Positions 21,880 through 42,587 of a stretch of 64,000 nucleotides of DNA are shown here, in pieces (the first letter of the stretch is position 1; each line of letters begins with the position of its first letter). Where the stretch lies: NCBI RefSeq assembly GCF_016864015.1, contig NZ_CP045067.1, positions 3,792,001 through 3,856,000 on the forward strand, given 5' to 3'. The notes under the pieces are model-generated. The model ran no database searches and was not told the DNA's origin. It saw only the letters and a list, made by a program, of their open reading frames with translations. The stretch comes from Lacinutrix sp. WUR7. Its GTDB lineage: Bacteria > Bacteroidota > Bacteroidia > Flavobacteriales > Flavobacteriaceae. Position numbers and translations under genes: made by a program.

Positions 21880-21982
21880 TTTACAATTTAATTTTTTTTT
21901 TCAATTATTGAATGATTTGACAAACAATAAAAATTGCAGATCCAACTCTGTCGGACCTACAATTAAGATAGTATTTTAATAC

Positions 21983-22393
21983 CTATACTTTTAAATATTC
22001 AAGAACCTGTTTCCAAGATTCATAAGGTTTACTACCAAACATAATATGTTCTCCCTCAAAATCGGCTACGCCATGGTTTTTAGTATCATCAATAATATAA
22101 TCCCCTTTTACTAAGTTTTTATGATGTGTAAGTATGAGTCTGTTTTTAGCTTCCAAACCTATATGTTTTTCAACCCATAAACGTTTTTCCATCCAACAAT
22201 GTGGATTACTCCAAACCGGAGTGGTAACAATATAACAATCATAATTATTGCTTAATTTTTTAAAAGCATCAATAGCTCCATCCATTGGTTTATTGTTTAA
22301 GAAAAACCCAATTGTATTCTTCTTTTCTATAAATGGTCCTTCCCCCAATTCTACTAATACACCATCCATGTCAAATAATACTATTTTTTTCAT
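21983..22393 (-). CDS. 5'(3')-deoxyribonucleotidase (NT5C-type HAD phosphatase)
   Basis: A 136-residue HAD-superfamily protein. The nucleophile motif is LFDMDGVLVELGEGP (Asp8 and Asp10 in DMDGV), motif II is IVTTP, and the C-terminal DYIIDDTKNHG supplies the metal-binding aspartates. TTPVWSNPHCWMEKRLWVEKH with LTHHKNLVKGD is characteristic of the NT5C deoxyribonucleotidase family, which removes phosphate from nucleoside monophosphates. Only 5 bases separate it from the upstream 97-residue gene, which in turn overlaps the viperin gene. It therefore probably acts on the same nucleotide pool, perhaps limiting modified monophosphates. Confidence 0.87.
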   Translation of the reverse strand: MKKIVLFDMDGVLVELGEGPFIEKKNTIGFFLNNKPMDGAIDAFKKLSNNYDCYIVTTPVWSNPHCWMEKRLWVEKHIGLEAKNRLILTHHKNLVKGDYIIDDTKNHGVADFEGEHIMFGSKPYESWKQVLEYLKV

Positions 22394-22398
22394 CCTTT

Positions 22399-22692
22399 TT
22401 AAATTTTACTAATTAATAAATAATTTTGTTTCCTTTTTGATGCATTATACTCTTGGAATTCACAATAAAAACAAGTGATTAAAGTGTTATTATCTATCTT
22501 TATAAATAATTCTTTGTTCGCGTTTTTATTTATTTTCCTTATCACGTTTCTACTAACAACCAGAAGTGTATTACTATTTTTAAATTCTATTTTTCTTAAA
22601 ATTTGGATTAAAAGATTATCGCTAATTTGTCTGTCCCATTGTCTGTAATTAAAATGTTCTGTTTTATTAAAACCTGCTATAGAGTTTCTCAT
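22399..22692 (-). CDS. Hypothetical protein of the viperin operon (weakly DUF4258-like)
   Basis: A 97-residue protein I cannot assign. The stretch EHFNYRQWDRQISDNLLIQIL resembles the H-x-x-R-x-x-x-R-x-I-S start of DUF4258 proteins, and later strands (LLVVSRNVIRKI, LFIKIDNNTLITCFYC) fit that small alpha/beta layout; this similarity is weak. Its ATG overlaps the stop of the viperin gene (ATGA), so the two are translationally coupled. It is quite basic. Whether it is an accessory, toxin-like or regulatory protein is unknown. Confidence 0.72.
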   Translation of the reverse strand: MRNSIAGFNKTEHFNYRQWDRQISDNLLIQILRKIEFKNSNTLLVVSRNVIRKINKNANKELFIKIDNNTLITCFYCEFQEYNASKRKQNYLLISKI

Positions 22693-24116
22693 GATACGCT
22701 TTCCTCCTTTCTTAAATCTTGGTTCTTGTCATTTTCCCAATCATAAATACCACCTCTTTTTTCAAATTTATCCAAATCATAATCCATTGTTTTTAGAGCC
22801 TCTTGTATACCAACCTCTAAAATGGGTTTACTATAGTTATGTGTTCCTTGTGCATTATCAAAAAAGCGTCCTGCAGGATCTACCATAACATAACTTCCTT
22901 TAATTTCATCATTAGATTCTGGAACTATAGTTTTTACATCTTTATGCGTGTTTAAAAAATGAGAGTATTCTGCATTTGTAATTTTAAATTCATCAATTTT
23001 ATTATCATTCTGACCTTTTATTGGTAATACTTGCAATACTTTCCAACGTTTTGGTTTTGCATGTTCAATAAAATCTACTAAGTTGTCTTTATAGTTTACT
23101 TTGTTAACTACAGTATTAATTTTTAAGCCATAACCATATTGATGAATTTTATCTATCAAGTCATAATAAAATGCTTTGCTTAAGGCTCTTTTTCCTGTAA
23201 TTGCTCTCCCTATTTTAATATTATTTTCATCTTCTAAACTATCTATACTTACTGCAATCCAGTCTAGGTACGGTTTATTGTTTTCTAAAAATGCATCTGT
23301 TAATTTACTACCATTAGTAACAATCATAGTAGTCATACCTAATTGTTTTGCTGTTTTAATAAGGTTTGGCAACCACTTACAAAGCAAAGGTTCTCCGCCA
23401 GCAAAAGTTATTTTTTCAAATCCTGCTGCTGCTATTTTTCTTACTACTTCTAAAGCTTCGGTTTCTGGTAAATGTCCTTTTGGTAAAATGGTTTGTTTTA
23501 CGTCTTGAAAGGTTGCAAAACAAAACTTACAGCGCATGTTGCATGGTTCCCATAAATGAAAGTTTATACTTGGAATTTTAGTTACACTATTACTCTTTTG
23601 ATAATGTTCCATTATTAAGTCTGCAACTTCATTGGCTGTTAAATCGCCCGTATTAATAACCAAATCATAGTTTTTATCATTAGTAAAATCTACACCATAG
23701 TTTTCTTGAAATCGATCTTTCATAATTTGGTTTCTTTGCTTAATAGCTTTGGCACTTGTGGACTCGTCACTTCTATTCGCTTCATGTATTCTTTTAGAAG
23801 CACTTTCATCAGATGCTTTTAATAATACATGAAATGCATTTTTTATAAAGTGGAATCCTAATCTATAATCAATTACAAGATTCTCTTTGCTATTACATTC
23901 TAATCTAAACTTCTCATCTATTTCAGTATCCAATTCTGGTTGTGTTTTACATTTCTCTTGAAATTCGTTAATAGTCAATCCATACTTTTCCATTGCATAT
24001 TTCCTAGAATAATTTCCAACAGAAATAAACTCAAAGTTTAATTGTTCTTGAATACGTTTTCCTACTGTAGATTTTCCTGTTCCTGCAAATCCGCTTAATG
24101 TTATTTTGGTTTTCAT
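22689..24116 (-). CDS. Prokaryotic viperin with N-terminal nucleotide kinase domain
   Basis: A 475-residue fusion. Residues 1-172 form a P-loop kinase of the (d)CMP-kinase type (GFAGTGKST at 9-17; lid SKRIHEANRSDES). Residues 182-475 form a radical-SAM viperin: Cys192, Cys196 and Cys199 in CNMRCKFC, FAGGEPL, LKINTVVNKVN, KRWKVLQVLPIKGQN, VPESN and KRGGIYDW all parallel animal viperin. Viperins dehydrate CTP, GTP or UTP to 3'-deoxy-3',4'-didehydro nucleotides that stop phage transcription. The kinase likely supplies the triphosphate, as CMPK2 does beside animal viperin. I choose ATG 24116, because the upstream in-frame ATG at 24140 lies within a hairpin. A small unknown gene and a nucleotidase follow. 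Confidence 0.94.
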   Translation of the reverse strand: MKTKITLSGFAGTGKSTVGKRIQEQLNFEFISVGNYSRKYAMEKYGLTINEFQEKCKTQPELDTEIDEKFRLECNSKENLVIDYRLGFHFIKNAFHVLLKASDESASKRIHEANRSDESTSAKAIKQRNQIMKDRFQENYGVDFTNDKNYDLVINTGDLTANEVADLIMEHYQKSNSVTKIPSINFHLWEPCNMRCKFCFATFQDVKQTILPKGHLPETEALEVVRKIAAAGFEKITFAGGEPLLCKWLPNLIKTAKQLGMTTMIVTNGSKLTDAFLENNKPYLDWIAVSIDSLEDENNIKIGRAITGKRALSKAFYYDLIDKIHQYGYGLKINTVVNKVNYKDNLVDFIEHAKPKRWKVLQVLPIKGQNDNKIDEFKITNAEYSHFLNTHKDVKTIVPESNDEIKGSYVMVDPAGRFFDNAQGTHNYSKPILEVGIQEALKTMDYDLDKFEKRGGIYDWENDKNQDLRKEESVS

Positions 24117-24132
24117 AATTTTTGGTTTTTTT

Positions 24133-24163
24133 AATCTCATCCTTAAACTAAAAGGATGAGATT
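24133..24163. promoter_or_regulatory. Perfect 12-bp inverted repeat upstream of the viperin gene
   Basis: AATCTCATCCTT (24133-24144) pairs with AAGGATGAGATT (24152-24163) across a 7-base loop. In minus-strand mRNA it lies between the small upstream gene and the viperin start. It is followed by A residues, not T, so it is not a classical terminator. It could act as an attenuator, processing site or partial terminator. Confidence 0.7.
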
Positions 24164-24173
24164 AGGTTAGTTT

Positions 24174-24317
24174 TTACTTGTTTGCGTTTTTAGCTCCTGC
24201 ACTTTGTGCTCTTGCTGTAAAACTTCCTTTTGTTACACCTCCTGAATTTGAAGATCTAGCAGTACTACTTTGTATTCTCGCAGCTGCTTTACTTGTCATT
24301 GGTCTTGATTTACTCAT
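24174..24317 (-). CDS. Small SMP-like protein (47 residues)
   Basis: A short gene read from ATG at 24317 to TAA at 24174. The product is Ser/Ala/Lys-rich and basic: MSKSRPMTSKAAARIQSSTA, then an SNSGGVTKGSFTARAQSAGA region. The pattern matches small seed-maturation-protein-like (SMP domain) bacterial proteins with KAAARIQS and FTARAQSAGAKN boxes, which I recall as widespread and often stress-linked. It is probably intrinsically disordered. It lies 57 bases upstream of the viperin gene on the same strand and might be co-transcribed through the hairpin. Confidence 0.72.
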   Translation of the reverse strand: MSKSRPMTSKAAARIQSSTARSSNSGGVTKGSFTARAQSAGAKNANK

Positions 24318-24426
24318 GTTTTTAAATATTTATTAAATACTCAAAGACTTATTATTTAGTAGGCTTTCTACTAATTATCCTTTGATTACACCTGCAATGT
24401 CGAGAAGAATAGAATTATATTATTAC

Positions 24427-24456
24427 ATTTGGGATAGAGAGGCTATATTTGGGATA
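24427..24456. promoter_or_regulatory. Direct repeat ATTTGGGATA x2, candidate LytTR binding site
   Basis: The 10-mer ATTTGGGATA occurs at 24427-24436 and again at 24447-24456, a 20-base period (two helical turns on the same face). LytTR regulators bind paired direct repeats of about this size and spacing. The site lies between the divergent viperin-side and LytS/LytTR genes, about 90 bases before the kinase start. Binding is inferred. Confidence 0.6.
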
Positions 24457-24544
24457 TCGAGTACTTTTTTTGTGATATTAAAAAAAGAGTAGATTTAAAA
24501 ATCCCTTTTTTAGAGAAGTAACTACTAACAACTAGACAATTTTT

Positions 24545-25576
24545 ATGTATTACTATTCAGAGTTAAATGAACAAATAGAAGTATTAAGAACCGCAACTTT
24601 TATACTATTAGGTTTATTAATATTAATAGTCATTAGAAATTGGTATAACCTGTTCAGAAAACGATCCTTCCGAAAAAAGAACAAACAGTTAAAAAAAGAA
24701 TTAGAAGTAACTAAATTAGCCGCTTCCAAATATGATGTACAGTTAAAAAAAGGAGAAAGCTTAGAAAGAAAATTAAATAAAAAACACACGGAAATCTTCC
24801 AACTACAACAAGAAATGGAAGATTACAAACAAAAATTCTATTCCTATTTAAGTCAAAAAGAAAAAGAAATAGCACAACACAAAGAAGCTAATAATCACCA
24901 AAAAAGAGCTTACGAACGTTTTGTAAACTATAAAAATGTGGAAGCTAACAATACCAGACTCGGTGCGCATTTTATTAAAAATGTAATTAGTCAGATTTAT
25001 GTGGACATGGAGGAAACCGATAATAGTTACAAGTCCTTTCTAGGAATTAACTATAAAATGGGTAAAAACAAAAATAAAGTACCGCCAATAAAAGCCTTAA
25101 AAAACATTTTTAAGCTATTAGATTATAACGTCTCAGCTTTAAATAAAGAAAACACCTCTTTAGAAGAAGAATTAGAACATATCACTATGTTTTTAGATCT
25201 TATTAAATATCTTAAACCAAATGCGAACATACAGTTTGATAATAGTTTAAGACAAGAACAAAAAGAAAACATAAAGATCAAACCCACTTTGTTTTTCCCT
25301 TTTGTAGAAAACGCATTAAAGCATGGAAGCTTAAACAATACAGACTCGTTTATAAGTATTGTGTTAAAAGAAAATAAAAACAAGCAACTAACCTACTGCT
25401 TGGTGAATAGTGCAGAACAGCGATTAGATTATGAAACCAAAGTCGCAGAATCTTCAAATTTTGGGCTAAATGCTTTACAACAATTACTAACTGCCTATTA
25501 TCCAAATAGCAAACTAGAACATAAAACATTGCCCAATAATCAATATTTGTCGGAACTAACCTTAAGCTTAAATTAA
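24545..25576 (+). CDS. LytS-type sensor histidine kinase
   Basis: A 343-residue membrane kinase. A single hydrophobic segment (FILLGLLILIVIRNW, residues 17-35) is followed by a coiled-coil stretch (about 40-135) rich in Lys/Glu. The phosphoacceptor region is LGAHFIKNVISQIY (His near residue 141), as in the HisKA_7/LytS family. The ATPase N-box is FFPFVENALKHGSL (near 248) and a reduced G-box is SNFGLNALQQLL. There is no periplasmic sensor domain, so it may sense membrane or internal signals. The stop is directly followed by the response regulator ATG. Confidence 0.92.
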   Translation: MYYYSELNEQIEVLRTATFILLGLLILIVIRNWYNLFRKRSFRKKNKQLKKELEVTKLAASKYDVQLKKGESLERKLNKKHTEIFQLQQEMEDYKQKFYSYLSQKEKEIAQHKEANNHQKRAYERFVNYKNVEANNTRLGAHFIKNVISQIYVDMEETDNSYKSFLGINYKMGKNKNKVPPIKALKNIFKLLDYNVSALNKENTSLEEELEHITMFLDLIKYLKPNANIQFDNSLRQEQKENIKIKPTLFFPFVENALKHGSLNNTDSFISIVLKENKNKQLTYCLVNSAEQRLDYETKVAESSNFGLNALQQLLTAYYPNSKLEHKTLPNNQYLSELTLSLN

Positions 25577-26377
25577 ATGATAAAGTATATACTTGTAGAC
25601 GATGACCAAAGTGTTTTAAAATCTGTTAAAGTTAAAATTGATACTCTATCAAAAGATTACGATTTACAACACGTAAAAAGCTATGACAGTTCTAAACAAG
25701 CTTTCCAGGAGATAAACGAAGATGATTTTGATTTACTCATTGTAGATTTTGAAATGCCTGTGTATAACGGTATTGAATTAGCTCAAAAAATAGCAACGAA
25801 TAAAAAAGTTATTTTTTTAACGTCTACAACTAATAATGAAAAAAAAGTAATCAATAGTCTAGATATCTCTGGTTTCTTAAGCAAACCTTTTGATATTGAA
25901 GAATTTGAAGAAATTTTGAAAAATAAGATTTTGGGGAAAGTGAAAACTACTTTTAATAAAAATAGTACAAACTTCATCACTTTACCAATTGGCAGCAACA
26001 AAGAAGTGCGTTTTAGACCTGAACAAGTCTATTACATTAGTACTTCCTTAATTAGTAATGGATGGAAGCCTAGTAAGAAATCTCAGAAATTTGAAAAAAT
26101 TAAGGCAGATAAACCTCATAAAAACTACTTACATATTTATGGTGAAAATGATGAAATGTTATTTGAAAATGTAAGAATGAAGATTATAGATATAAATAAA
26201 GAACTATTCCGTTATAATTTCGAAAAAATCAGCCAAAGCACTATTATCAATATGTCTCATATAAAAGAAAGAAAGAATACTACTGTTTATTTATATAACT
26301 GCAAAACAGAATTTGAAATCACAGATAGAGAAAAAACAGGATTTATGGGAAAATTAAGGGCTAAATTTAAGGTTTAG
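25577..26377 (+). CDS. LytTR-family response regulator
   Basis: A 266-residue regulator. The receiver domain (1-120) has the acidic pair in LVDDDQS, the phospho-Asp in LLIVDFEMPVYNG (near 56) and the Lys in FLSKPF (near 104). The C-terminal LytTR DNA-binding domain (about 140-265) has the family's GSNKEVRFRPEQVYYIS start and later FEKISQSTIINMSHI. It starts immediately after the kinase gene and should be its partner. Targets may include its own promoter through the ATTTGGGATA repeats. Confidence 0.94.
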   Translation: MIKYILVDDDQSVLKSVKVKIDTLSKDYDLQHVKSYDSSKQAFQEINEDDFDLLIVDFEMPVYNGIELAQKIATNKKVIFLTSTTNNEKKVINSLDISGFLSKPFDIEEFEEILKNKILGKVKTTFNKNSTNFITLPIGSNKEVRFRPEQVYYISTSLISNGWKPSKKSQKFEKIKADKPHKNYLHIYGENDEMLFENVRMKIIDINKELFRYNFEKISQSTIINMSHIKERKNTTVYLYNCKTEFEITDREKTGFMGKLRAKFKV

Positions 26378-28001: not shown

Positions 28002-29165
28002 CTAGTTTACTTTTTTAAATTTTTCTAGCCATTTTTCAAAATGAACACGATCATTATTTCTTTCATTTTCAAACCATTCACAACAAACCCAATAACTATT
28101 GCCATTAATTTCAATTGGGTCTTTCCAATAATGTAAAGGACTAGTACTATTAATTTTATCTTCTAATAATGGATATTGTATATCAAATAATTCTTTAGAC
28201 TTTTCCTGAGACTTCATTTGTGAAATTTCGTCATTATTAATAAAATTCCCTGCAACTAATTCATTAAGTTTTCTTTGTACAAATTTTCCGATTTTTTCCT
28301 TTTCATTGTTATTTTTAAACTGATCTGCAATATTTTTGGCTGTATCTCTTATACTTGGTTCAACATGTAAATTCGTCTGTAAAGACTCAACTGCTTTTTG
28401 TATTAAATCCTTATTTTCCTCCCAAAACTGAGTTAACAAATCACTTTCTTCCTTTGTAATTGCCATAAATTGATGTGTGTTTTTAATGTTTTCTACTGGA
28501 TTCCTTAATGCTATAATGTAATCTTTTAATATATGAAAAGTAGAATCATTAAGATCCTCGTCGAAAAGCGGTGTTATTATTAAATCTAATATATTTTGAT
28601 AATTGATCTGTATAAAATCTTTACATATACATTCAGGACTTTCTAATTGATCTAATTCAAAAAGCGAAATCGGAGTTAAATAAACAAAGAAAGTATTTAT
28701 ATCATTGTTATTCTTATTATTAATCGAATCAAAATAACGCAGTGTTTGTTTATTAAACTCACCACTATATACCTTGTTCTCAACAATTATTTGCAATTTA
28801 AATTCGTCAATATTACATTCAATTATTAAATCAATTTCTCCATTAATTCCTTCTCTAAAATTTTCTATTACTTTTAATGAATTAATAGAATAATCTCCAA
28901 GTACTAGTTTTTTATACAACTCCATATCAATTGTATTTTCATTAAAAAACTTGCTAGCAATTAAAACATCAATTAAATATCCCACTGCAACCTCTGAAAC
29001 CATACATTCTTTACTAAAAAGCCATTTCAAAAATGAAGTATGCCTAATTTCTTTCCTATTTACCCCATAAATCTCCATTAAAGATTTAGTAGAATAAATA
29101 TCCATCAGCTTCTTCGTCGATTGACTATTTTTAAAAGCTATAATTCTTTTTGTTAATTCTTTCAT
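28002..29165 (-). CDS. PD-(D/E)XK nuclease family protein
   Basis: A 387-residue protein of the PDDEXK_4-type family. An N-terminal helical part precedes the nuclease core at about residues 85-150: GEIDLIIECNIDEF supplies the Glu and Asp, and LQIIVENKVYSGE the E-x-K pair, followed by KQTLRYFD. The C-terminal ~200 residues are helical and end in a beta-rich segment with PIEINGNSYWVCCEWF. Such proteins are common in restriction and defence loci, although their exact function is mostly untested. It shares its core architecture with the gene at 41334-42587. Confidence 0.85.
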   Translation of the reverse strand: MKELTKRIIAFKNSQSTKKLMDIYSTKSLMEIYGVNRKEIRHTSFLKWLFSKECMVSEVAVGYLIDVLIASKFFNENTIDMELYKKLVLGDYSINSLKVIENFREGINGEIDLIIECNIDEFKLQIIVENKVYSGEFNKQTLRYFDSINNKNNNDINTFFVYLTPISLFELDQLESPECICKDFIQINYQNILDLIITPLFDEDLNDSTFHILKDYIIALRNPVENIKNTHQFMAITKEESDLLTQFWEENKDLIQKAVESLQTNLHVEPSIRDTAKNIADQFKNNNEKEKIGKFVQRKLNELVAGNFINNDEISQMKSQEKSKELFDIQYPLLEDKINSTSPLHYWKDPIEINGNSYWVCCEWFENERNNDRVHFEKWLEKFKKVN

Positions 29166-33440: not shown

Positions 33441-36101
33441 TTACTTTTTAAAACTTTGTTCTAAACCCATTTCTCTAATTTTATCTAACCATTCATAAAT
33501 CATGGTTTGGCAATATTTAGGTTTTCCGTCTTCATTCTTTTCTTTTTCCATGGCAATAGCTAACAAAGCATATTCATTTTCTAGAGAAGTGCCAAAAACA
33601 CCTTGATCGTCTGTGTTTATGGATACAAATAATTGTGGACATTCTTTTATCTTATCAAAATCAGTTTCTAAGTGTAAATTGAAAAAATTCTTTATAGGGT
33701 GTTTGTTATATTTATCTATAGTTCCAATTAAATAATTGGATGTTGGATTACATTCAATTCCTATATTCATTTGTACGATGTAGTTTTGATATTCTTTTTG
33801 AATACTAGTAACTAATTTTATATAAGCCTCTGTAATTTCAAATTGCTTTATTTCTTTACCCTTCTTTTTTATTGCAGGATTAAAATGATATTGCTGATAC
33901 AAAAATTTAGTTTTGCTGTCATTTCTTATGTTTCCTCTTTTAGGATAAAAATGATTAATTCTACATCTTTCCCAATAGGTAATATTCGGAATGTCTTCTA
34001 TTTTGTCATCTATATCTTCTAAATATAAATATGGATCATCTCCTCTTAATTTCCATGCATCAAAATATATTTCATGTTTAAAATCTATATTATAAAATCT
34101 AGAATCTTTATCAAAATAACATTGATAAATTTCTCTAAATAAAGAATCAAATAACTTTTCTAATTTATAGATTTCGCTTGTATGGTCATTTATGTTGTAT
34201 TTTCTAACCTTAGCCAACAACCAAGCAATATTATCTAATAACATCTCTTTCGGAATCAATAATTTTCTTCCTTTAAAATCAAAATATGCTTTAACATCTA
34301 TTCCTAGTGCCAATGCATGTCCTATTCTATCGCCTTGGCAAAATTTTAGAAACTTAATGCTTTCATCAATACATCTAATTCCATCTATAATATCATAAAA
34401 ATCTTCTCCTGCATGATAAGTAGCATACAGTTTATTTTCTACAATCTCTTTCTTTAAATGATTGTATTTTCCATTTAATTTATGGTCTTTTAAATACCTA
34501 AAGGCTTGTGCAAAAACTTCTGGTCTTGCATTAAATTCATTTGAAGCAGCATCAATACCTCTTATCAATTTTGCTTTGGTAGAATACGATTCTCTAAGTT
34601 GTACGATTGCTCTGGCTTGTTTTTTCACATCTTTTCTTAATTGATGATGCCTTGGTAATACTTCTTGAGCCAATTTGTAATTCGTATTCTTCTCTTTAAA
34701 CTTAATAAAATGGACTGTATAAAAATGTTTTTCTTTGTTTGCTTTATACGTACCTAAAACCTTTTTGAGAGGAATATTATAGTGTGTCTGTTTTAATGCT
34801 TTAGGATCACTATTAATTTGATATTTCTTTAAACTCGTATTAATAGCTAATGCGGTGTCTTTAGGAGCAATTCTAGTTTCAAAAGAAGTTATATTTTGAA
34901 ACTTTGTACTATCATTAATAGCCATTTGTAATAAGGCTGTTTCATAAATACTATTATCTGGAATAAAGTATTCTTTTCTATCCTGATACGTAGAAAAGTT
35001 AGCAAAACCAACCTTTTTATTTACCTGAATCAATTCTGATCTAAATTGATTTTTGATGGATATATATGCGTGTAATAATTTTTCTATCTTAAAGCTTTCT
35101 TTTTTTTCTGCATAGATATACTTCAAAGCTCTGTAGAGTAACTGCCTTTCACCATACATTATAAAAGAACCTTCAAAGTTATTAATATGCATGTCTTTAG
35201 TGATGGCATAATCTGCTACGTCTTGCTTTCCTTTATGATAAAACTCATAGCCGTAAAGTTTCTTTTTCTCGTTTATTTCAATTTGAATATTAGACAAATT
35301 CATTAATACCTCAAACGAATCGTTTTTATTAGAATTTGGATATAATAAGTACTTAAAATCAGCTACGTTAATTTCACTATTTTCATCTAATAAAAATTGA
35401 AATAACACCAGTCTAATTTTCGAAGCTTTATAAACAAGGATGTCTATTTCTTTATTTTGATTATTAAAGGAATGAGAGGTAGTACCATTTAATTTGAGTC
35501 CTTTTTTTAATTTCTTAAACTTTTCAGTATGATGATTACTATTGATCGTATTCATTAAAGAAATCCAATTCAAATCGAAAACGGGAGCAGAACCCTTTAA
35601 ATGAAAATGATTTTCTGCAATCCCTTTATCTAATAATTTTTTTAGTCTGTTATTGTTTGAAAAAGCAACGGTTCTCCAAGAAAAGAAATTTCTTTTTCTT
35701 TTAGAACGGTTATCCATATAGGCAAAGTAAGAACAGGTAAATAAATCCTCTCCTAAAGAAAAAGACAAATCTCTCCAACGTAATAAATGCTCATAACAAA
35801 CAAAAGGTTCTTTGTCTCGTTCTATTAAAACTTGTTTATTAAAATGAGTTAATAAATTAAAAATGGATTTATTACTACTTTTTCCTTGATACACATCTAG
35901 TAGCCAATCTGAATCTAACTTTTTATATAAGTTTTCAATTTCATCAAAACTATAGTTATCAAAGAGGGACAAGCCTTGTTCTAAAAAACCTGTTTTAGAA
36001 AAAATATCATTTTCTAAAACATTACTGTATATATGCTGAAGTATTAAATCAGGACAAGTATTATTAAAAATTGCTTCTATGGATTTTCTAAGATTATCCA
36101 T
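33441..36101 (-). CDS. rdrB: RdrB, adenosine deaminase of a RADAR anti-phage system
   Basis: An 886-residue protein with the complete metal-dependent adenosine deaminase signature spread over a large scaffold: HFH at 165-167 (ENHFHLKGS), YHAGED at 562-567, DRIGHALALG at 591-600, ECNPTSN at 783-789 and NTDDQGVFG at 829-837. Free adenosine deaminases are ~350 residues, while RdrB proteins are ~800-900, with insertions for dodecamer assembly. RADAR deaminates adenosine in RNA and/or ATP/dATP during infection. It follows and overlaps by 8 bases the second part of rdrA, the gene order of known RADAR loci. Confidence 0.9.
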   Translation of the reverse strand: MDNLRKSIEAIFNNTCPDLILQHIYSNVLENDIFSKTGFLEQGLSLFDNYSFDEIENLYKKLDSDWLLDVYQGKSSNKSIFNLLTHFNKQVLIERDKEPFVCYEHLLRWRDLSFSLGEDLFTCSYFAYMDNRSKRKRNFFSWRTVAFSNNNRLKKLLDKGIAENHFHLKGSAPVFDLNWISLMNTINSNHHTEKFKKLKKGLKLNGTTSHSFNNQNKEIDILVYKASKIRLVLFQFLLDENSEINVADFKYLLYPNSNKNDSFEVLMNLSNIQIEINEKKKLYGYEFYHKGKQDVADYAITKDMHINNFEGSFIMYGERQLLYRALKYIYAEKKESFKIEKLLHAYISIKNQFRSELIQVNKKVGFANFSTYQDRKEYFIPDNSIYETALLQMAINDSTKFQNITSFETRIAPKDTALAINTSLKKYQINSDPKALKQTHYNIPLKKVLGTYKANKEKHFYTVHFIKFKEKNTNYKLAQEVLPRHHQLRKDVKKQARAIVQLRESYSTKAKLIRGIDAASNEFNARPEVFAQAFRYLKDHKLNGKYNHLKKEIVENKLYATYHAGEDFYDIIDGIRCIDESIKFLKFCQGDRIGHALALGIDVKAYFDFKGRKLLIPKEMLLDNIAWLLAKVRKYNINDHTSEIYKLEKLFDSLFREIYQCYFDKDSRFYNIDFKHEIYFDAWKLRGDDPYLYLEDIDDKIEDIPNITYWERCRINHFYPKRGNIRNDSKTKFLYQQYHFNPAIKKKGKEIKQFEITEAYIKLVTSIQKEYQNYIVQMNIGIECNPTSNYLIGTIDKYNKHPIKNFFNLHLETDFDKIKECPQLFVSINTDDQGVFGTSLENEYALLAIAMEKEKNEDGKPKYCQTMIYEWLDKIREMGLEQSFKK

Positions 36102-37617
36102 TATTTATTATAGAATTATCAATTAAGTTTAATAATTCATTTTTAACATCATTCGAATCTCTAGATGAATCATCCATTTTTATTCTTAAATCTCTTATTA
36201 AATCAATATAATTTGGAGAAGTGTTAGGTATTTCTTCGAGCCTAGTTATTAAATTTGTTATTACTGTTTTTGTATTAATCCTATTTATTATATTGGATTT
36301 ATATTTCTTAACTAGAGAATAAGCATCTTTATTAATAGGATACTTTTTTTTCTCTAAACTTTTTTCTGGTATTTCAAACACTTTTCTTAAAACTAAACTA
36401 ACCTTTTCTTTGTTTGTTTCGTTGCTCCAATATTGAAGTAAAGGATGGTTTAATAATTTTCCGAAATCAAAATTATAATCTTTATTTAGGTCATCAATTA
36501 GTTCAGGTATTCCTCTAACAATATATTCATATAAGTATGTGTCAAAATGGATTAGAGAATCTTTAGTTCCTGCCCTTTTGTACATTAAATTAATAAACTT
36601 ATTAAATAAAGCTATGTTGAATATTTGAAAATAATCATTATCTGGTTGTAATGAATTTTTCCATTCCTCCATTTCTATATATAGATCAGTTTTTTTGACT
36701 TTATCAGATATAGTATTTGGAATATAAGTTTGAAGTATGTTCTTTGGGGATAATGTATTGTATAAAAATGAAATAGCATTGAATGTTACAGATTCAAAGG
36801 GATTTCCAGGTCTATTTATTGTTCTACTTTTTATTTCATCATCAGAAGTCACATAGTTCATATTATCACCTAAGCGATCAAAAAAAGATGATAACCAAAA
36901 GTATAACTCTTCATTATTACCATCAATATCTAGGCTAGAAATTAACTCAAATATTTTTTTTGGAGACTTATGTATTTCAAAATAATCTCTAGGTTTTCCT
37001 TTTCTTTCAGATGGTAAATATTTTATAGATCTATTAGTTAATTGATCATTGATTAAATAATAAAAGTCAGAATTATTATAATTCAATAAATTATTTTTTA
37101 AAGCTTCAGATATTCTTATTGAATAGTAATTTGATAAGTAAGTTAAAAAAAAAGGAGTCTCTTTTTCTGAAAAAAATCTTGTTTTTTCAAGGAACCTTAT
37201 AATAGATAAAAGGTCACCGTAGGATACATTATTAGAATTTGTTGCTTGTGTTAAAGAATATAAATTATCTATTGAGCTTTCTAGTTTATCTTTGTAAATA
37301 ACACCCAATCCATTAATTATTTTTCTATTTAAAACTTTATTAGACGTATTATTTAATTCATTAAAGAATTGAACATTTTCTTTAGATAAATTACTATTAA
37401 TTTCACTCATTAAATATTCTTTAAAAGAATCAAGAGAGCTTTCTCTATATATAAAAGTAACTGTATTTATATATTCTCTTATATTGGCAGGAATAATAAT
37501 GTTCTCTTCTGAATCATCTTTAATAATAACGAAGTTGGCTTTATCTTTAACTACTTTAATAAAAGTATCTACAATATTTTTATCTTCGGAATAAATTGTT
37601 TTATTATTTGTTTTCAT
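36094..37617 (-). CDS. rdrA: RdrA C-terminal part (separate reading frame segment)
   Basis: A 507-residue, largely helical protein without an ATPase motif. It lies in the same frame as the upstream ATPase segment: that gene ends in TAA, then GGC, then this ATG. Together they would give ~830 residues, the size of intact RdrA. A WLSSFFDRLGDNMNYV segment and the C-terminal helices fit the scaffold half of RdrA, but I cannot confirm this by alignment. It overlaps rdrB by 8 bases. Either the product is a separate subunit of a naturally split RdrA, or the gene was broken by a nonsense mutation. Confidence 0.75.
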   Translation of the reverse strand: MKTNNKTIYSEDKNIVDTFIKVVKDKANFVIIKDDSEENIIIPANIREYINTVTFIYRESSLDSFKEYLMSEINSNLSKENVQFFNELNNTSNKVLNRKIINGLGVIYKDKLESSIDNLYSLTQATNSNNVSYGDLLSIIRFLEKTRFFSEKETPFFLTYLSNYYSIRISEALKNNLLNYNNSDFYYLINDQLTNRSIKYLPSERKGKPRDYFEIHKSPKKIFELISSLDIDGNNEELYFWLSSFFDRLGDNMNYVTSDDEIKSRTINRPGNPFESVTFNAISFLYNTLSPKNILQTYIPNTISDKVKKTDLYIEMEEWKNSLQPDNDYFQIFNIALFNKFINLMYKRAGTKDSLIHFDTYLYEYIVRGIPELIDDLNKDYNFDFGKLLNHPLLQYWSNETNKEKVSLVLRKVFEIPEKSLEKKKYPINKDAYSLVKKYKSNIINRINTKTVITNLITRLEEIPNTSPNYIDLIRDLRIKMDDSSRDSNDVKNELLNLIDNSIINNG

Positions 37618-37623
37618 GCCTTA
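37618..37623 (-). other. In-frame TAA splitting rdrA
   Basis: On the minus strand the codons read ATA AGC TAT TAA GGC ATG AAA ACA. The stop (37621-37623) and following Gly codon lie in the same frame as both rdrA halves, so a one-base change in the TAA would restore a continuous ~833-residue gene. Confidence 0.95.
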
Positions 37624-38598
37624 ATAGCTTATTATAACTTTAGTTGATTGGGTAGTTGATAAATCAGGTGTTTTTAACCTTCTTTCAATTGGAAATAGCT
37701 TAGTTAAATATTTATTTGATTTATTTGAAATAATTTCTGATAATTCTAAATCATTATTATTCTGTTTGTACTCAAAAAGTGTTTTATATTCTTTTATGAT
37801 TTCGTTATTAATAGAATCTTGTAATTGTTCCATTTTACAGGCAATTAAAATAATTACATTACTTTGAATTAAGAATTGGCGAATATCTTCTAACATTTCA
37901 TAAGCACCAGAAATGTTCAAATCAAAATCATCTATAGGAATTAATAAAAAACCTTTTTTATCTTTTGAATTATCAATTCCGTACATGCAAAGTAGATATT
38001 CATCTACTAATTTTTTAAAATTCTCTTTCAAGTTTGTACCGAAAGCTAAATCACTTAAAGCTTCAATAGCTTCTTTTTCGTAAACATCAGACTTTCCGTT
38101 ATGAACTACTTTAAGGTTGTTAAATACCTTTTGAAACTGTTTTATTAAATCTCGTTTACGGTCATTTTTAATAGTATTTTCTTTCTTTAATTTCTTCTGA
38201 AACTTAGAAAACATTTTAGATATGATAATTTCAAAAAGTTTATCTTCATTTCTAAATAAAGAAGGATCAATAATGTCTAAAGATTTTATTTTAGCTTTTT
38301 CAAGATTAGGAGTGGCTCTCCAAAAATCATCATCAGATTTCTTGTTTTTTAAAGCATCTGCAAAAGAAATCATAGAAGAACTTTTACCTGTACCACGTTC
38401 TCCTGTAAAAGCGATTACATTATTGTAATCATCATTACTAATACTTTTATTACTAGCAACTGTATTTGCTTGTAAAATGATCTCTTCTACATTTTTTGTA
38501 GCTTGTGTATATACTTCTTTAAAAATAGAGTCTTTAAATTCCTTAGTTTTCTCAATTTTAATTTTATATTCTTCTCCTATATTAATTTCTAATGCCAT
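37621..38598 (-). CDS. rdrA: RdrA N-terminal ATPase part, ended by an in-frame TAA
   Basis: A 325-residue P-loop ATPase. Walker A is TGERGTGKSS (65-74), Walker B is LLIPIDDFD (218-226) and a sensor-like strand is NVIILIACK (247-255). The last conserved part is TKLFPIERRLKTPDL (about 303-317). RdrA of RADAR is a single ~850-900 residue AAA+ protein forming a heptameric ring that assists RdrB. Here the ORF ends with TAT TAA GGC ATG and continues in frame. It starts 43 bases after hsdS. Confidence 0.83.
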   Translation of the reverse strand: MALEINIGEEYKIKIEKTKEFKDSIFKEVYTQATKNVEEIILQANTVASNKSISNDDYNNVIAFTGERGTGKSSSMISFADALKNKKSDDDFWRATPNLEKAKIKSLDIIDPSLFRNEDKLFEIIISKMFSKFQKKLKKENTIKNDRKRDLIKQFQKVFNNLKVVHNGKSDVYEKEAIEALSDLAFGTNLKENFKKLVDEYLLCMYGIDNSKDKKGFLLIPIDDFDLNISGAYEMLEDIRQFLIQSNVIILIACKMEQLQDSINNEIIKEYKTLFEYKQNNNDLELSEIISNKSNKYLTKLFPIERRLKTPDLSTTQSTKVIISY

Positions 38599-41333: not shown

Positions 41334-42587
41334 TTAGTTTTCTTTCAATTCTCGGATACCTTCCCATTTTAAAATTGTATTTATGTATCCAGTGACTTCT
41401 TTCCATAGGTTACTTACAATTTGTTTTCTTTTTTCAGGATTGGCTAATGCCAATGTTGTTTCATTATTAAATGTTTCAAAATCGATATTTTGTTTAGGGA
41501 ATTTCCAATGAATCCAAGGTGAATCTTTATCACCGAAAAAGTCATTAGAAATATTCTTTTTTAAAAAATCTGAAAAATCTGTTTTTTTAATTTCCCATTT
41601 CTTTTTGTCTAAGTTCAAATAGTTAATGAGTAAACCATAATCTAAACGATCTTCTCCTCGTTCAATCATAAAACAAATCTCTTCATCTTTAAAATTAAAA
41701 AGTTTTAACATTAAACCATATTCAAAATCTTTGTTTCTACTAGAATGAATTACACCATTTAGAAATTTATCATTAAATAAAAATTCTTCAACGATAGGAT
41801 AAGGTTTTAATTCATTTGGAATTTGAGTAAATAACTCGTTCCAAAAATCCATTTCTGTATGCCATTTCATATGTATCCAATTATCTGCCAAAAATTGTGC
41901 TTGCTTCATATAATCAGCATGACCTAAAAGATTTAATAATTCTTTACGTTCTTTTACCTCATTACTCATAGTAAGATGATTTAATAGTTGTTGGTATTGC
42001 ACAATGGTTTCCCTGATTACAGGTTGTGTGGCACATTCTTTTAAACATAAAGACAACCATGGATTTATAAATTTCTTATATGATTTACTATAAAGCTTAT
42101 TTTCAATAATTTCTAATGGTAAGTTCTCAATACTTTGAAATGATGGTGGTTTACCATCGAGACTTAAATAAACTATATAAATATCTTTTATCCTACTATT
42201 AGAAACTATTTTATAATACCTAGATAATTGTTTTGGTTGGTCTCCAGCGTAGATTTTATTTTCAATAATAATTGCTTGCGATGAATTTTGGATTAGCAAA
42301 TCAATATTATCCTTTTCACAATGTACCTCTATATTATCTAGATTAAATTTAATGTTTAGTTGATTTATAAATAACTCTAAAAACGCATTTTTTTTATTAT
42401 GAGTTCCTAATGGAGATAATAATTCAAATAAAAATTGAGAATGTAAGCTTACCTCTTCATGTCCTGCACGAATAATTCTAAAAATATTGAAATCATGCTT
42501 AGACTTTTCATTTTTATGTTTGTTTGAAATAATTCTTAGATCTTTAAGAAACATCTCTAGGTCACTATGTTTTATTATTTGCTTCAT
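41334..42587 (-). CDS. PD-(D/E)XK nuclease family protein inserted between hsdR and hsdM
   Basis: A 417-residue protein with a PD-(D/E)XK core at about residues 85-140: CEKDNIDLLIQNSSQAIIIE, then NKIYAGDQPKQLSRYYK, giving I-D-L and E-N-K. An N-terminal HEEVSLHSQFLFELLSPLG motif is typical of this PDDEXK_4-type family. The remainder is an unassigned helical and beta-rich region. It abuts hsdR and hsdM with no spacing, so it must be co-expressed with the type I system. It shares the core with the gene at 28002-29165. Its role (extra nuclease, immunity, or separate system) is unknown. Confidence 0.85.
   Translation of the reverse strand: MKQIIKHSDLEMFLKDLRIISNKHKNEKSKHDFNIFRIIRAGHEEVSLHSQFLFELLSPLGTHNKKNAFLELFINQLNIKFNLDNIEVHCEKDNIDLLIQNSSQAIIIENKIYAGDQPKQLSRYYKIVSNSRIKDIYIVYLSLDGKPPSFQSIENLPLEIIENKLYSKSYKKFINPWLSLCLKECATQPVIRETIVQYQQLLNHLTMSNEVKERKELLNLLGHADYMKQAQFLADNWIHMKWHTEMDFWNELFTQIPNELKPYPIVEEFLFNDKFLNGVIHSSRNKDFEYGLMLKLFNFKDEEICFMIERGEDRLDYGLLINYLNLDKKKWEIKKTDFSDFLKKNISNDFFGDKDSPWIHWKFPKQNIDFETFNNETTLALANPEKRKQIVSNLWKEVTGYINTILKWEGIRELKEN

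Follow-up and report, generated by a model that had tools for sequence, protein, structure and literature searches.

In animals, a CMP-kinase-type enzyme, CMPK2, is encoded beside viperin, and infection induces the two genes together. The protein described here resembles the viperins of prokaryotes in Bernheim et al. 2021, which are reportedly radical SAM enzymes expected to make 3ʹ-deoxy-3ʹ,4ʹ-didehydro (ddh) nucleotides. We analyzed a viperin operon of Lacinutrix sp. WUR7 that lies in a 64,000-nucleotide stretch of contig NZ_CP045067.1 (positions 3,792,001 to 3,856,000; hereafter the window, whose numbering is used throughout). Whereas the animal genes are separate and interferon-induced, the Lacinutrix kinase and viperin form one polypeptide, and their operon is accompanied by a bacterial sensor-regulator pair: a LytS-like histidine kinase and a LytTR-type response regulator, transcribed divergently from the operon across three direct repeats. 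Judged from the sequences, it is this pair and the repeats facing the operon, recurring across viperin loci, that looks new.

The closest catalogued systems are the viperin systems of PADLOC, one of which (PDLC02905) corresponds to the kinase-viperin fusion, while NERD-type genes take the slot upstream of viperin in two surveyed loci (L011 and L038). No PADLOC model matched the other operon products, namely a 97-residue protein (p97), an NT5C-type phosphatase and a small first protein, nor the histidine kinase, and the matches of the regulator were limited to its receiver part and to candidate PDC-M60 models (best 1.5e-5). As far as the available excerpts on them go, LytS/LytTR systems such as BtsSR and YpdAB share the kinase and regulator domains of the pair; the window kinase differs in having one transmembrane (TM)-like stretch and no recognised sensor domain, and the window pair in having apparently one main target site, ahead of a defence operon. 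A literature search whose coverage excluded Bernheim et al. 2021 returned nothing, in the text portions available, about what turns bacterial viperins on, and no paper combining viperin with LytTR. The texts that join viperin, response regulator and prokaryotic were off the subject in their available parts (WYL, cancer stem cells, fish vaccines): PMC9122601, on WYL, names viperin there in passing only. The accessible parts of PMC10732462 contain no mention of CMPK2 or an operon, and those of PMC9642334 no mention of a kinase or fusion.

A sensor-regulator pair and direct repeats beside the operon

The histidine kinase gene (24545-25576, plus strand) is followed immediately by the response regulator gene (25577-26377, plus strand). 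The TM-like stretch of the kinase is N-terminal (residues 10-37, by hydropathy), and the H-box and N-box are present; H142, N146, N256, H260 and G307 are invariant in 25/25 aligned relatives (of 26; L030 was excluded for its cut kinase), 19 of which match Pfam His_kinase at E<=0.01. The regulator scores 65.5 bits for Response_reg and 28.9 bits for LytTR, both above cut-off. Its D57 and K103 are invariant in 40/40 aligned regulators (of 41; in L012, excluded, the regulator is cut by the contig end), with the receiver domain found in all 40 and LytTR in 35 at E<=0.01. The hallmarks of a LytS/LytTR pair, an H-box histidine, an N-box, a receiver aspartate and a LytTR domain, are all in place. The preliminary description, confined to 21983-24116, ended just short of the pair and the repeats and listed neither.

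To place the pair, we compared viperin loci across genomes. A GTDB scan gave 106 viperin relatives, of which the best 80 loci by resemblance to the window protein were taken together with the window and six loci from genomes of its family (L010-L015), 87 in all. Removal of L025 and L029 (same contigs as L012 and L013) and of six loci with no viperin open reading frame (ORF) in the greedy ORF chain (L076, L078, L082, L085, L089 and L091) left 79 for comparison. "Near" ORFs are those within three ORFs of viperin (442) and "far" ORFs the others of the same loci (636); the Fisher p values of this survey treat related loci as independent. A response regulator lies at most three ORFs upstream of viperin in 41/79 loci, corresponding to 41 of the 442 near ORFs versus 5 of the 636 far ones (Fisher 5e-12), and a histidine kinase accounts for 26 near ORFs versus 1 far. 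With the window and L010-L015 assigned to Bacteroidota by us, regulator-linked loci comprise 40 of the 59 from that phylum plus one without a phylum label (L081, Saccharibacteria). The divergent pair is present in every one of the 12 N-fused-type loci, where the kinase domain precedes viperin as in the window; these loci include L022, whose kinase ORF is a 59-residue fragment, and L026, where kinase and viperin are separate ORFs.

Within the family, viperin is an accessory gene, found in 7/397 genomes at E<=1e-60; it is missing from both further genomes of this genus in the draw. Relatives of the window histidine kinase at E<=1e-20 occur in 3/395 family genomes, each adjoining viperin (best five candidates per genome scored). 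Among the seven viperin-bearing family genomes, G033 and G390 have a far-diverged pair adjoining viperin, and G113 and G002 a large upstream gene instead. The genome of the window holds 15 LytTR genes, among which the viperin-linked one is the weakest match. The survey stands without an independent replicate because a phylum-wide viperin search was positive in just 2/395 genomes, those listed all belonging to the window's family.

Between the divergent genes, at 24428-24477 (minus strand), lie three 9-bp direct repeats, TATCACAAA, TATCCCAAA and TATCCCAAA, spaced 21 and 20 bp apart. The site carries what is expected of a LytTR-controlled promoter, at least two direct repeats in a phase of about 21 bp near the promoter, and the repeats are probable binding sites for the response regulator. 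Shuffles of the window gave an expectation of 0.00 occurrences for the repeat pair pattern, which the 3.99-Mb genome contains at this one site (the reversed pattern, as a control, gave 0). A fixed 22-bp spacing, tried as well, gave no genome match. The 21/20 triple, with at most one mismatch per unit, recurs in 11 of the 12 N-fused-type loci; elsewhere in all loci scanned (3.05 Mb, both strands counted), it appears only as second copies in L016 and L084. In L084 the second triple is followed directly by the gene for a look-alike of the small protein in the window, along with a second small gene; in L016 two other small genes follow. Since these extra sites stand before small genes, they suggest a small regulon of the viperin operon and small disordered proteins.

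A related signal is found in loci of a different arrangement. In 24 same-strand loci, where the regulator directly precedes viperin, the first 95 bp past the regulator stop show a 21-bp periodicity: a scan of spacings from 12 to 33 peaks at 21 (z 10.7), and a repeat of the analysis on the 24 gaps gave z 9.9, with 0/500 shuffles as high. The sequences upstream of the kinase/regulator genes gave z 1.3 (n=23, omitting L030, which has no upstream sequence) and those upstream of regulator-less viperins z -0.2 (n=38). After thinning to eight loci (one per viperin cluster at 65% identity), the periodicity remained at z 6.7, with 0/1000 shuffles as high; the regulator-less control thinned to 24 gave z 0.2.

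We propose, with a probability of roughly 0.6, that the locus is an inducible antiphage viperin regulon that has its own sensor-regulator pair and makes ddh-nucleotides; the DNA binding, the induction, the chemistry of each enzyme and the effect on phage are what we infer from the genes and motifs. In this proposal, the one-TM LytS-like kinase would phosphorylate its LytTR partner on D57, and the regulator would bind the three repeats in their ~21-bp phase and turn the operon on, yielding the small disordered protein, the kinase-viperin fusion, p97 and the NT5C-type phosphatase. Viperin would act on a ribonucleoside triphosphate, dehydrating it to a ddh-nucleotide that halts RNA synthesis by the phage. 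The CMP-kinase-like domain fused to viperin could feed the substrate pool or re-phosphorylate the analogue monophosphate, and the phosphatase, as counterpart of the kinase, may trim monophosphates of substrate or analogue. If the sensor is dedicated and has essentially one target site, its signal would reveal what the bacterium recognises as infection before it releases a toxic chain terminator. A more tentative extension, which we put somewhat below even odds, is that many Bacteroidota viperins serve in a genuinely inducible immune response, in which infection would be detected by a dedicated sensor kinase in the membrane and a nearly single-target LytTR switch would turn on viperin, kinase and helpers, as a bacterial parallel to interferon-stimulated viperin, with close relatives swapping a NERD-type protein, and myxobacteria a sigma-factor-like gene, into the same slot.

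Several observations weigh against this proposal. Of the 59 Bacteroidota loci, 19 lack the regulator, as do all 19 from other named phyla, which means that viperin as such can do without it; for 15 of the 41 regulators, no histidine kinase lies within three ORFs, although some of these loci, such as L043, are cut by a contig end. Two of the linked regulators may be chance neighbours, since in L041 a NERD-type gene stands between regulator and viperin and in L064 the 487-residue match is unlike the other regulators. Related loci are not independent, and on the tree the regulator linkage amounts to 14 changes. The window's own histidine kinase falls below the Pfam His_kinase cut-off (18.1 versus 25.2 bits). 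For the repeats, the triple is missing in L028 and reduced to two units in L012 and L022, the unit reads TATCMCAAA in the divergent group but is TTTCATTAC-like in the same-strand group, and the shuffles behind the periodicity scores preserve base composition only. The assignment of the repeats to the regulator also draws on the general behaviour of LytTR proteins, which bind direct repeats spaced by about 21 bp, or about two helical turns.

The kinase-viperin fusion and its partner genes

The operon runs on the minus strand from 24317 to 21983 in the order small 47-residue protein, kinase-viperin, p97 and NT5C-type HAD phosphatase, and all four members of the layout given in the preliminary description were found, although the small gene falls beyond the interval it covered. 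The fusion gene (22689-24116, minus strand) encodes a (d)CMP-kinase-like domain followed by a radical SAM viperin. Its frame is open from 24140 (483 residues), and an ATG at 24116 gives 475 residues; the latter is the likely start because 8 of the 10 fused N-type ORFs begin at the matching residue and a hairpin covers the upstream ATG. That stem-loop (24130-24166, minus strand; z -7.1) lies between the small gene and the fusion. Over nine sequences, 88.6% of its cells are paired and four pairs show changes on both sides, compared with at most 59.8% and three in slid controls, for a structure drawn by hand from the very sequences scored. A terminator-like hairpin at 21932-21964 (minus strand) closes the operon; the stretch has two such sites versus 0.7 expected. 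The leader before the small gene (24320-24390, minus strand) contains a second possible hairpin, seen by eye in the alignment of relatives such as L010, L016 and L018 as well.

The fusion contains the two domains first described, a domain resembling (d)CMP kinases and, behind it, a viperin with its key motifs. Pfam gives 59.8 bits for Cytidylate_kin2 (PF13189; cut-off 28) and 71.3 bits for Radical_SAM (cut-off 29.5), the viperin part reaches 336.8 bits for the NCBIfam equivalog NF038283 (cut-off 180), and the kinase domain matches PADLOC VakA (PDLC02911) at 114 bits. The kinase part scores 92.2 bits for the (d)CMP kinase model TIGR02173, below the cut-off of 102.1, though PF13189 is above its own. 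The viperin CxxxCxxC motif is present, with C200, C204 and C207 invariant in a seven-row alignment, as is the kinase P-loop, GFAGTGKS. Any novelty of the fusion as such falls away: it is an already catalogued kind, because it covers the PADLOC model "Viperin-kinase fusion" (PDLC02905) almost end to end (987.5 bits, model positions 1-473 of 474). Among plasmid and phage records, none matched more than 80% of the fusion.

A kinase occurs in 28 of the 79 loci: N-fused in 10, C-fused in 8 and adjacent in 10, the last including L022 and L026. The C-fused loci, with the order reversed relative to the window, are L013/L029, L027, L028, L030, L034, L039, L087 and L094. The suggestion that kinase, viperin and NT5C-type phosphatase travel together is upheld, with NT5C in 12/28 kinase-bearing versus 1/51 kinase-less loci (Fisher 6e-6); in the lone exception, L015, a neighbouring gene looks TMPK-like by eye. 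The gene for p97 behaves similarly (13/28 versus 2/51, Fisher 9e-6). When corrected for the tree in a paired test, the association of the kinase with NT5C or p97 did not reach significance, informative pairs being too few. Counted by ORF, NT5C makes up 13 of the near ORFs and p97 15, versus 0 of the far ORFs for each. The linkage of these two genes to viperin, on which the preliminary description had relied, is therefore recurrent without being obligatory: the 12 N-fused-type loci have p97 in 10 and NT5C in 9 (the L049 copy shortened to an 82-residue ORF), and the eight C-fused loci have each in 3 (the L039 sequence ends just after viperin). Relatives in which the two genes are unlinked from viperin, which the preliminary description would have taken as refuting its reading, make up part of the sample. 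Kinase, phosphatase and p97 are recurrent but optional partners, and together with the small disordered protein they make up a defined candidate set for supplying, tuning or surviving ddh-nucleotides.

The phosphatase (21983-22393, minus strand; 136 residues) starts 5 bp after the p97 gene. It scores 55.7 bits for PF06941 (cut-off 24.8) and has a HAD core with the DxD motif and the motif IV acids; over 12 rows, D8 and D10 are nearly invariant, the exceptions being an N at position 10 in L020 and an L017 ORF without the first residues, and D102 and D103 are invariant. The predicted structure (pLDDT 92.7) finds 5ʹ(3ʹ)-deoxyribonucleotidases as its nearest solved structures (best E 1.8e-10, TMq 0.80). 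The nucleotidase cap, located between motifs I and II, is largely missing: 7 residues separate the aligned blocks (the first of which is not significant alone) versus 45 in the mouse enzyme 2jao. In a protein of 136 residues with most of the cap region gone, the substrate does not follow from the NT5C-type family name. Looser NT5C-like relatives at 1e-8 occur in 81/395 family genomes, which rules out a viperin-specific family, although the viperin-linked relatives are the three nearest, at 58-100% identity.

The p97 gene (22399-22692, minus strand) overlaps the viperin stop by 4 bp, and each of its 15 members lies within three ORFs of a viperin. An AlphaFold2 model (pLDDT 83.7) gave no confident match in a fold search against the PDB (best E 0.65), and the sole Pfam hit among the 15 members, Casc1_C in 4 of them (best E 0.0018), was taken as chance.

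The small protein (24174-24317, minus strand), encoded by the first operon gene, is of low complexity, probably disordered as judged by eye, and present in one copy in the genome; its matches are sub-threshold only (Ifi-6-16, 25.6 bits versus a cut-off of 29.1; seed maturation protein, 18.3 versus 22). Small proteins of the NRGKQLNPN type are found in 9/395 genomes, 3 of them with a detected viperin, and we therefore rejected viperin specificity for the small proteins. In genomes without a detected viperin, a 46-residue NRGKQLNPN protein stands, by eye, beside a GIY-YIG-like gene (L128) or a MoxR/AAA-type gene (L132-L134). Such a protein may be encoded by a mobile gene that heads several operons for stress or defence.

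Other readings of the locus

The preliminary description cast the operon as a self-contained chain-terminator pathway, with kinase, viperin and nucleotidase together channelling and adjusting nucleotide analogues, so that the two-component pair would be incidental. The association of kinase and NT5C given above and the position of the kinase, fused at either end of viperin or adjacent to it, would suit such a pathway. It nevertheless leaves out the best-supported feature of the locus: a regulator stands by viperin in 41 of the 79 loci, compared with 28 for a kinase domain, 13 for NT5C and 15 for p97, and the promoter repeats have no second site in the genome, while the tree-corrected test of kinase with NT5C had no power. 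We regard a self-contained pathway as improbable. If instead the pair were a general stress regulator that sits in defence islands by chance, and viperin were constitutive, one could point to the 15 LytTR genes of this genome and to relatives of the NRGKQLNPN-type family that adjoin other operons. Against this stand the concentration of regulators near viperin, the one genomic site of the repeat pattern and the family-wide search, in which histidine kinase relatives occurred solely beside viperin; such a coincidence would be very surprising.

A further reading concerns p97 and the phosphatase, which could be a protective or toxin-like add-on, with p97 an RNA-binding or RelE/HicA-like toxin and the nearly capless phosphatase an RNA-end or self-protection enzyme, together producing abortive infection with viperin. 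HicA and RelE genes have been reported next to viperins of prokaryotes (PMC10865869), and they share with p97 the position of a small gene directly adjoining viperin; the 4-bp overlap fits such an add-on, as does the next structural match of the phosphatase past the nucleotidases, the T4 Pnkp 3ʹ-phosphatase (E 1.5e-4). However, p97 is recognisable as neither HicA nor RelE by Pfam, PADLOC or fold search, and a BrnT/RelE-like identity, tried as a candidate, was not borne out: the toxin folds matched are weak (BrnT, E 4.9; Helicobacter pylori toxin 4ltt, E 0.86), and no Pfam toxin family appears among the 15 members. The phosphatase, at E about 1e-10, is far nearer the nucleotidases. We consider the add-on unlikely, and retain the inducible regulon as the favored account.

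Genomic setting and alternative upstream genes

The window is a defence island with type I restriction-modification, RADAR-like genes, a restriction AAA gene and PDC-S26 candidates. The RADAR-like genes (33441-38598, minus strand) adjoin the type I restriction-modification locus, with matches of 105 bits to RdrB and 64 bits to the N-terminal part of RdrA. The RdrA-like gene is possibly split or disrupted, since the match of its 325-residue ORF (37621-38598) is confined to the first third of the model and the ORF that comes next, of 507 residues (36094-37617), has no match. Two proteins, at 28002-29165 and 41334-42587 (minus strand), match the PADLOC candidate PDC-S26. The gene of the first adjoins a 203-residue gene and a WYL regulator, which hold the same order beside the L010 viperin; the gene preceding them in L010 was not found to be related to the first PDC-S26 protein.

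Other viperin loci have a large protein directly upstream of viperin, and those scanned, L038 (514 bits) and L011 (25.8 bits), the only two scanned in this BLAST cluster, match the PADLOC model "Viperin-associated NERD" (PDLC02906); L032, placed in the group by hand, was not recognised by PADLOC. In L011, L023 and L024, the viperin domain is 82-84% identical to that of the window, and these loci combine the large upstream gene (cut by the contig end in L024) with no kinase domain and no nearby regulator. Six myxobacterial loci (L068, L075, L079, L080, L083 and L086) share another gene family upstream of viperin. Its one scanned member, from L080, has sigma-70 region 4 above cut-off and, by eye, hydrophobic segments, and this gene is possibly another dedicated regulator. 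In five Chloroflexota/Dehalococcoidia loci (L070, L071, L073, L074 and L077), a large protein follows viperin and clusters by BLAST with the NERD-type proteins; that of L070 looks TPR-like by eye.

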